In this document: piece by piece, positions 11,619 through 13,857 of the stretch
How positions within the stretch are numbered: the stretch's first letter is position 1
Layout: every line of letters begins with the position of its first letter
Assembly: GCA_012519385.1 (NCBI GenBank)
Contig: JAAYQI010000114.1
Location: 1-47,980, forward strand
DNA from: Candidatus Epulonipiscium sp.
GTDB lineage: Bacteria; Bacillota; Clostridia; Lachnospirales; Anaerotignaceae
DNA: 47,980 nucleotides
Reading direction: 5' to 3'
The notes under the pieces: generated by a model
Seen by the model: only the letters and a program-made list of their open reading frames with translations
Databases searched by the model: none
What the model was told of the DNA's origin: nothing
Position numbers and translations under genes: made by a program

Positions 11619-12824
11619 TTATTGCCGTCCCATAGACTGAGCAATAGCATCTGCCATGGCATTAATTTCTGCCAGCTGGTCTTTCTTTAAAGTGGATTTA
11701 ATACTTACCTTTTGCTCCAAAATAGTCATGTTTTTGCATTTTTCAAGCTCAGCACAAATTAGCTTTCCGCTGACAGGTGCCCAAGAACCGTTTTCAATGA
11801 CTGCTACGGTACGGTTTTGCAGGTTATGGTTCACAATATCAAAAATAAGTGCCTCCATACTGATAAACATACCGTTATTATATGTTGTGGATGCAAATAC
11901 TAAGTGGCTGTAACGAAATGCTGCCGCTACAATATCGGAAGTGTGTGCTACAGAAACATCAAACATTACTGTTTTGATTCCTTTATCCCATAGGCGAGAA
12001 GCCAATATCTCCGCAGTATTTTCCGTATTGCCATAAACAGAGGCATAAGCAATCATAACGCCTTCTTCTTCAGGAGTATAGGTACTCCATCTTTCATATT
12101 TCTCCACATACTTCTCAATATCTTTTCTCCATACAAAACCATGGAGAGGACATAAGAGTCGAACATCCTGTGCAGAAATCTTTTTTAGTACTGCCTGCAC
12201 TTGCTGACCATACTTGCCAATAATATTGGCATAGTATCTTCTTGCTTCTTGCATATAGTTGTGTTCAAAATCCACTTCATCGGCAAAAATAGCACCGTTT
12301 AATGCACCAAAGCATCCAAATGCATCAGCGGAAAACAATATTCCGTCTGTTTTATCATAGCTCATCATAACCTCAGGCCAGTGCACCATAGGTGCCATAA
12401 AAAAGGTTAGCTCATGCTTGCCTGTAGAAACGATATCGCCTTCTTTTACCACCAGCACACGGGAATCAATATCAAAATCAAAAAATTGCTTAATCATGGT
12501 AAGTATTTTTGCATTACAGATAATCTTCACATCAGGATAGCGAAGCACCAGTTCTTCCAGTGTAAAGGAATGATCTGGCTCCATATGATGCACTACCAAA
12601 TAATCTAACTTTCTGTCACCCAATGCTTGTGTTACGTTTTCAAAAAAAACTCTGCTGACTGCTTTGTCTACCGTATCAAACAAAACCGTTTTTTCATCTA
12701 ATAACAAATAGGAATTATAGGATACTCCGTCAGGCACAGAATATACTCCTTCAAACATTGCCAAACGGCGGTCATTTCCTCCAACCCAAGTTAAATCATC
12801 GGTAATCTTTTTTAAGCAATACAT
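11619..12824 (-). CDS. Flavodiiron protein (FprA family A-type flavoprotein)
   Basis: At 401 residues this is a class A flavodiiron protein. The N-terminal metallo-beta-lactamase-like domain (1-250) has the diiron ligand motif H80-x-E82-x-D84 (VVHHMEPDHS), the later MAPMVHWPE, FSADAFGCFG and CPLHGFVW segments supplying the remaining ligands. The C-terminal flavodoxin domain starts with IAYASVYGNTENTAEILA, the FMN phosphate loop, and includes ASTTYNNGMF and ENGSWAPVSGKL. These cytoplasmic enzymes reduce O2 to water and/or NO to N2O using electrons from rubredoxin, which is encoded 1.3 kb away. AAGGGGAAGG precedes the ATG. A Fur-box-like promoter lies about 240 bases upstream. Confidence 0.95.
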   Translation of the reverse strand: MYCLKKITDDLTWVGGNDRRLAMFEGVYSVPDGVSYNSYLLLDEKTVLFDTVDKAVSRVFFENVTQALGDRKLDYLVVHHMEPDHSFTLEELVLRYPDVKIICNAKILTMIKQFFDFDIDSRVLVVKEGDIVSTGKHELTFFMAPMVHWPEVMMSYDKTDGILFSADAFGCFGALNGAIFADEVDFEHNYMQEARRYYANIIGKYGQQVQAVLKKISAQDVRLLCPLHGFVWRKDIEKYVEKYERWSTYTPEEEGVMIAYASVYGNTENTAEILASRLWDKGIKTVMFDVSVAHTSDIVAAAFRYSHLVFASTTYNNGMFISMEALIFDIVNHNLQNRTVAVIENGSWAPVSGKLICAELEKCKNMTILEQKVSIKSTLKKDQLAEINAMADAIAQSMGRQ

Positions 12825-13067: not shown

Positions 13068-13096
13068 ATTATATATCAACCGATAATTATTATCAA
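13068..13096 (-). promoter_or_regulatory. Promoter overlapped by a Fur-box-like palindrome, upstream of the flavodiiron gene
   Basis: On the - strand TTGATA (13091-13096), 17 bases, TATAAT (13068-13073). The spacer and -35 are covered by CGATAATTATTATCA (13081-13095), one base from the 7-1-7 Fur consensus TGATAATnATTATCA; it fits PerR (TTATAATnATTATAA) less well, with three differences. Iron-dependent repression of the downstream flavodiiron gene is the inference, through a leader of about 240 nt. Confidence 0.6.
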
Positions 13097-13120
13097 TCAT
13101 TTTTTATAAAATTTCCCTAC

Positions 13121-13152
13121 AAAAAAAGTCACAGAAGCTTCCTTCCGTGACT
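13121..13152 (-). terminator. Intrinsic terminator of the HTH-desulfoferrodoxin gene
   Basis: On the - strand AGTCAC-G-GAAG / CTTC-T-GTGACT (13127-13152) is followed by TTTTTTT. It separates the regulator gene from the flavodiiron promoter. Confidence 0.85.
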
Positions 13153-13169
13153 CTTTATGCATATCCTTT

Positions 13170-13760
13170 TTATTTTTTACTCTCATGCACCCATAACCCA
13201 TGTTGGCTACACCCAAAGTACAGCTTGCCTCTGCGTATTTTAGGAAAGCGCAGTTCATTTCCCTGCTCGGGATATAAGCGAGTCAAAAGCATTCTATCAT
13301 AATCTGCATAAGCGATAAAATTAATATAATGCTCCTTTTTCATATCATGGGAAAATGTAATATACAACTCCCCATCCATTTCCTCCACCTGAATAAAATG
13401 CTGTGCATCCTCAGGTTTTGGCAAAAGCGCCTCTAGCTTTCTGCCGCAGCAGGATACTTCTGGCTCTCCTGTAGCAGTTACAATGTTTCCACAGGCAGGG
13501 CAGGTATAAAATTTTATTCGTCTCATATTTCCTCCATCCTTTTCATTGCTTTGCATATTTCCCGTTAAAATCCGTTCAATATTCATTTCCAAAACTTCAG
13601 AAAGCTCCGGTAACAAAGACACATCGGGACAGCCCAACCCTCGTTCCCATTTTGATATGGTGCGGTCACTTAGATTCATTTTATCTGCCAGCTGTTTTTG
13701 GGTCCAGCCTTTTTCTTTTCGTAAACTCAGTATCAGCTTTCCGATTTGCGTGTTATCCAT
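13170..13760 (-). CDS. XRE-family HTH regulator fused to a desulfoferrodoxin-type domain
   Basis: In this 196-residue protein, residues 5-60 form an XRE/Cro helix-turn-helix (IGKLILSLRKEKGWTQKQLA ... SDRTISKWERG). Residues 84-110 match the desulforedoxin-like iron site, with C87-x-x-C90 and C104-C105. Residues 118-192 match the superoxide reductase fold. All five centre-II ligands appear in place: H121, H138, H144, C184 and H187 (CSQHGLW where the family has CNLHGLW). The Glu-Lys pair usually found before the first His is replaced by Ala-Gln, so catalysis may be weakened. The likely role is a DNA-binding sensor of superoxide, peroxide or iron; this is inference. AGGAGGTGAAGGT precedes the ATG. 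The gene has its own promoter and terminator, beside flavodiiron and rubredoxin genes. Confidence 0.88.
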   Translation of the reverse strand: MDNTQIGKLILSLRKEKGWTQKQLADKMNLSDRTISKWERGLGCPDVSLLPELSEVLEMNIERILTGNMQSNEKDGGNMRRIKFYTCPACGNIVTATGEPEVSCCGRKLEALLPKPEDAQHFIQVEEMDGELYITFSHDMKKEHYINFIAYADYDRMLLTRLYPEQGNELRFPKIRRGKLYFGCSQHGLWVHESKK

Positions 13761-13780
13761 ACCTTCACCTCCTGTAAAAC

Positions 13781-13809
13781 AGTATACGAAAACAACTGCT
13801 GCAAAACAA
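13781..13809 (-). promoter_or_regulatory. Promoter of the HTH-desulfoferrodoxin gene
   Basis: On the - strand TTGTTT (13804-13809), 17 bases, TATACT (13781-13786), giving a leader of about 15-20 bases before the start codon. Autoregulation at this site would be plausible but is not shown. Confidence 0.6.
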
Positions 13810-13857
13810 CAAACGCTCCGTAGAGTTAGGGAAATTCCTTAGTAGCTAGGTGTTTTC

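Follow-up and report, generated by a model that had tools for sequence, protein, structure and literature searches.

The gene at positions 13170 to 13760 of the window, the whole 47,980-nt stretch of Candidatus Epulonipiscium sp. DNA that was analysed, encodes an HTH DNA-binding domain fused to a desulfoferrodoxin-like module. Comparison with its relatives makes it very likely that the product regulates transcription and does not act as an enzyme, because the lysine that precedes the first histidine of the superoxide-reducing site is rare in these fusions (7/118) and because an operator-like site is found at the gene's own promoter. We propose, with a probability of roughly 0.6, that the protein is an XRE-family transcription factor that regulates its own gene and would sense through the desulforedoxin-type Cys4 metal site within a former superoxide-reductase (SOR) module. 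The gene and the domains of its product are located as follows.

13170..13760, minus strand: HTH-Dx-SOR fusion gene (open reading frame of 196 aa, ATG at 13760)
13766..13773, minus strand: ribosome-binding site AGGAGGTG of the fusion gene (from the sequence)
13578..13727, minus strand: XRE/HTH_3 DNA-binding domain, residues 12-61 (Pfam PF01381, E 1.5e-14)
13446..13502, minus strand: desulforedoxin-like Cys4 site (centre I), residues 87-105, CX2C-X13-CC (cysteines invariant in 118/118 fusions)
13191..13427, minus strand: SOR-like domain, residues 112-190, with the centre II residues H121, H138, H144, C184 and H187 all present (from alignments)

The HTH of the 196-aa protein is of the Cro/CI type and scores above the PF01381 cut-off. 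Residues 80-193 constitute the Dx-SOR module, which matched the PDB desulfoferrodoxin 1vzg at E 5e-8 and TIGR00320 at E 9.9e-10, and profile-profile comparison aligned the canonical desulfoferrodoxins with the fusion (99.2%, E 7e-20). C87, C90, C104 and C105 align with the desulforedoxin cysteines and H121, H138, H144, C184 and H187 with the five ligands of centre II, a correspondence that is far beyond chance. Hence, the preliminary description of this DNA, which had recognized a fusion of an HTH to desulfoferrodoxin with all nine iron ligands, is borne out by Pfam, 1vzg, and the profile-profile alignments. What it called "nearly the spacing" of the enzyme is CX2C-X13-CC in the fusion protein versus CX2C-X15-CC in the enzyme, and the Glu-Lys pair before the first histidine, whose loss it had pointed out, is indeed replaced by Ala119-Gln120. 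The module scores below the curated desulfoferrodoxin cut-offs (TIGR00320, 38.7 vs 146.9 bits; PF06397, 19.5 vs 23). In the source genome, which is 83% complete, PF01880 (canonical SOR) had no match at its threshold, and a search of Rfam gave none at the fusion locus.

Within the same family, 43 of 58 genomes contain a match at E ≤1e-12, some of these matches being to the HTH alone, and in the same order the fusion was found in 104 of 392 genomes at E 1e-30. A collection of named genomes, whose scan by HTH motif is biased toward fusions with this HTH, contained fusions in Clostridia, Negativicutes, and Bacilli. The fusion is no simple replacement of SOR, because 66 of the 104 carriers in the order also encode a canonical enzyme. 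Ligands were counted in 118 distinct fusions after one row, an unrelated HTH protein, had been dropped. The four cysteines of centre I and His138 are invariant (118/118), and the centre I spacer measures 13 residues in 115 fusions and 12 in the other 3. The complete ligand set of centre II, in contrast, is present in only 57 of the 118, with His121 retained in 72, His144 in 108, Cys184 in 103, and His187 in 80. On a tree built without the ligand columns, the state changed 22 times for H187, 9 times for H144, 8 times for C184, and 6 times for H121, where each count may include the one unrelated HTH row. Among 30 canonical SORs of the same order, H2, H3, Cys, and H4 are conserved in 30/30, and Glu, Lys, and H1 in 29/29 where the sequence is complete; the lysine before the first histidine is thus constant in complete canonical desulfoferrodoxins but nearly absent from the fusions. 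All 14 fusions with two or fewer centre II ligands have kept the operator described below. Judged from these sequences, the regulatory role does not require centre II. Since Cys4 is invariant, centre II is so often incomplete, and the ligand-poor members retain the operator, metal sensing, if there is any, would most likely run through Cys4. The idea that the fusions share one conserved His/Cys set thus holds for centre I, which is never lost, but not for centre II, which is incomplete in 61 of the 118.

The promoter of the fusion gene comprises the following elements.

13807..13826, minus strand: predicted operator ACTCTACGGAGCGTTTGTTG, overlapping the -35 (matrix score 33.1)
13804..13809, minus strand: -35 of the fusion promoter, TTGTTT, whose TTG is the operator end (from the sequence)
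13781..13786, minus strand: -10 of the fusion promoter, TATACT, with a 17-nt spacer (from the family promoter geometry)

An element of the form ACTCTACG-NNN-CGT(N2)RTTG overlaps the -35 of the fusion genes' own promoters in 109 of 115 cases, all called with a weight matrix above the 99.9th percentile of shuffles. In five of the six apparent misses the site lies somewhat further upstream, and in L074 the operator precedes a flavoprotein gene at the head of the operon. By k-mer counting, ACGGAGCGT occurs in 41 of the 115 upstream regions, where about zero occurrences were expected. At the core of the element is the dyad TCTACG-N3-CGTAGA; the right arm is adapted to the -35, with whose TTG it ends. 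Positions 4-6 of the -35 are near background in the 109 family promoters, and 97 of them have a 17-nt spacer in front of a TANNNT -10. Because the site directly abuts a poor -35 at a fixed place, this geometry favours a class II activator, and we lean toward activation rather than repression. The site at 13807-13826 is the only strong matrix site in the window and the only exact copy of the operator in the assembled source genome, where matches with two mismatches occur at control level. A literature search for the operator string returned no match. The preliminary description had suggested DNA binding at 13781-13809 and 13068-13096, which instead turned out to be the -35/-10 cores of the promoters of the fusion gene and of the flavodiiron protein (FDP) gene behind it; the conserved element lies at 13807-13826, and none is found upstream of the FDP gene.

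The operator also varies with the recognition helix. Arg at residue 33 occurs in 17 fusions, and operator position 16 is G in all 17, whereas it is A in 60 of the 66 fusions with Lys33 and Arg40; among 27 fusions with Thr40, 23 have the right arm in its AG form (CGTAGG). As the tree gives good support to only two to three independent pairs, the covariation is supportive but no proof. Taken with the conserved position of the element, binding of the operator by the fusion protein itself is highly probable.

Two features follow downstream of the fusion gene.

13120..13157, minus strand: terminator hairpin and T run directly behind the fusion gene (folding energy)
11619..12824, minus strand: FDP gene, the next gene (ODP/flavodoxin domains)

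The FDP gene was considered as a target of the fusion protein and rejected. The terminator region at 13116-13165 folds with -24.6 kcal/mol (z -8.3), a hairpin that a simple terminator scan did not list. The FDP gene has its own promoter, TTGATA-N17-TATAAT at 13096-13068, whose -35 is overlapped by a Fur/PerR-like box, CGATAATTATTATCA at 13081-13095, with one mismatch to TGATAATNATTATCA. The gene was not seen next to the fusion in the neighbourhoods of the relatives. Because of the strong terminator, the separate promoter with this box, the missing operator, and the lack of conserved adjacency, FDP probably is a non-target. A generally conserved neighbourhood was dismissed as well, as most neighbours of the fusion differ among relatives.

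The fusion gene is, moreover, a recurrent insertion site of mobile elements that carry a large serine recombinase (L185/L167, L186/L168, L166, L165, and L172; G001, G002, G005, G007, and G051). The HTH is interrupted immediately behind its recognition helix, and the C-terminal part of the split fusions, from about residue 40, abuts the 3' end of the recombinase. In L186, the N-terminal half of the fusion with the operator lies about 13.6 kb away.

In samples of the order and the phylum, together about 765 genomes, the exact operator pattern has 48 matches, compared to 9 for a reversed control. Most of the sites (32/48) lie at fusion genes or their operons, two of these sites at gene halves that a mobile element has separated. 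Five precede CatA-like acetyltransferases, four of these in one genus; five precede FMN-reductase-like flavoproteins with a CX2CX2CX7C motif, two precede GIY-YIG-like proteins, one precedes an HTH-GNAT protein, and three are at nothing sensible. The CatA-like target is a CAT-family acetyltransferase (PF00302). The flavoprotein presumably resembles the iron-sulfur flavoproteins, and the GIY-YIG-like label stems from one weak match (TIGR01453, E 2e-7) and sequence likeness. Where CatA is encoded within 8 kb of the fusion it is a same-strand partner in 12 of 14 loci (2 behind a GIY-YIG-like gene), and direct same-strand partnership with the fusion holds for the flavoprotein in 6/6 loci and for the GIY-YIG-like gene in 3/3. 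Ten of the 12 genomes with a trans site encode the fusion elsewhere; in two draft genomes the element stands before the flavoprotein and no fusion was detected. Among the genomes sampled from the order and the phylum, the operator was found at no superoxide-defence gene. In the source genome (83% complete), a search run without a positive control found neither CatA-like nor flavoprotein targets and left the fusion gene as its own only target. Regulation of the listed targets by the fusion protein in the relatives is nevertheless quite probable.

Several loci deserve mention in their own right. In L175-L178, L180, L181, L032, L033, L038, and L067, the CatA-like gene overlaps the end of the fusion or begins within 50 nt of it, and CatA-like homologues elsewhere carry the same operator. 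At L216:1500-2327, an XRE HTH is fused to a GNAT acetyltransferase behind the same operator, which suggests a wider group of HTH-effector fusions with one common DNA site. Four genomes (L232-L235) share an operon that consists of the operator, a GIY-YIG-like gene, a small gene that we take to be DUF2087-like, and a fusion with a broken centre II; a gene for a MerR-type regulator comes after it.

According to the mechanism that we propose, an HTH dimer would bind the TCTACG-N3-CGTAGA dyad at the gene's own promoter. A change at Cys4, such as oxidation or loss of iron caused by O2, superoxide, or a redox-active compound, would rearrange the HTH and alter transcription, by class II activation more than by repression. 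In relatives, the regulon would also include the CatA-like acetyltransferase, the CX2CX2CX7C flavoprotein, and the GIY-YIG-like protein. Cys4 is the preferred candidate for the sensor, and iron a somewhat better guess than zinc for its metal. Cys4 sites may also serve as structural zinc sites. Superoxide is an improbable signal.

The preliminary description had instead taken the superoxide-reducing site for a direct sensor, with superoxide bound or reduced at centre II and a need for both iron sites. All five ligands are indeed present in the 196-aa protein and in 57 of the 118 fusions, and H138 is never missing. However, between one and four of these ligands are missing from the other 61, lost many times independently, although Cys4 is intact in all of them and the operator in those that were tested; the lysine before the first histidine is nearly always gone, and the operator is not found at superoxide-defence genes in the samples. 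A sensory centre II is thus improbable, and of the earlier argument for sensing over turnover, the regulator stands, in line with the rare lysine and the conserved operator-like site, whereas centre II as its sensor does not. The same full ligand sets, found in about half of the fusions including the 196-aa protein, might also indicate a bifunctional protein, a superoxide reductase whose HTH only serves autoregulation. With a canonical SOR in 66 of the 104 fusion-bearing genomes, the Lys48 equivalent lost, and ligands often lost, this is very improbable.

Another possibility is a xenobiotic sensor in which Cys4 is a structural zinc site and the remodelled SOR domain a pocket for a small toxic compound, which the CatA-like enzyme and the flavoprotein would modify. 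This would agree with the best recurrent targets, the PF00302 acetyltransferase and the FMN-reductase-like flavoprotein, and with the high conservation of non-ligand residues (M140, F148, and the YPE region). However, desulforedoxin Fe(Cys)4 centres typically show the CX2C..CC arrangement, the cysteine motif of the flavoprotein target is of the cluster type, and no ligand is known, so that we regard such a sensor as unlikely. Finally, the upstream element may be the site of a different regulator, to which the fusion genes would respond, as could be argued from the HTH-GNAT gene (L216) with the same element and from the two draft genomes in which the fusion went undetected. But the element accompanies the fusion gene even in distantly related Bacillota, and its sequence varies together with the recognition helix of the fusion protein. 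That a related HTH has this element too suggests a DNA specificity common to both HTHs; a separate regulator is rather improbable. The autoregulatory factor with a Cys4 sensor remains our preferred reading. Tentatively, and at somewhat less than even odds, the fusions may represent a widespread class of Bacillota activators in which a superoxide reductase became a sensor, with an Fe(Cys)4 redox switch, a freely decaying catalytic iron site, and a dedicated operator that ties it to genes for an acetyltransferase, an iron-sulfur-type flavoprotein, and a GIY-YIG-like protein.

The architecture itself is already known. SORGOdb (2011) named an HTH-Dx-SOR class of 19 proteins with the same order of N-terminal HTH, desulforedoxin, and SOR module (PMC3116461). 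It treats the class as superoxide reductases, and its main text is without an operator, a regulon, or a decay of centre II (PMC3116461). A search of the open-licence literature found no functional study of the class. TrtA of Treponema, an XRE-type oxygen-response regulator, was considered as a member and rejected, as it has 104 aa and no Dx-SOR domain (PMC12724145). What is new is the constraint on Cys4 as opposed to the decay of centre II, the operator, and the candidate regulon in relatives. The comparison thereby arrives at a testable regulatory system with an operator, a promoter geometry, candidate targets, and a prediction for the metal site, in a fusion class found widely among anaerobes of gut and soil and also in relatives of Bacillus. 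The Dx-SOR enzymes (PDB 1dfx, 1vzg) have homologous domains, and their nine ligands are conserved in the fusion protein; the latter differs by X13 in place of X15, the lost Glu-Lys, and scores below the curated cut-offs, and its relatives often have a broken centre II. Like SoxR, FNR, and PerR, the fusion combines DNA binding of the HTH type with a metal site. Outside the enterics, SoxR controls drug-modifying enzymes and efflux. In contrast to these three regulators, the fusion has a mononuclear Cys4 site of the desulforedoxin type, an SOR fold, an XRE-type HTH, and an unrelated operator, and if Cys4 is the switch, it would to our knowledge be the first case of a redox regulator with a desulforedoxin site at its core.
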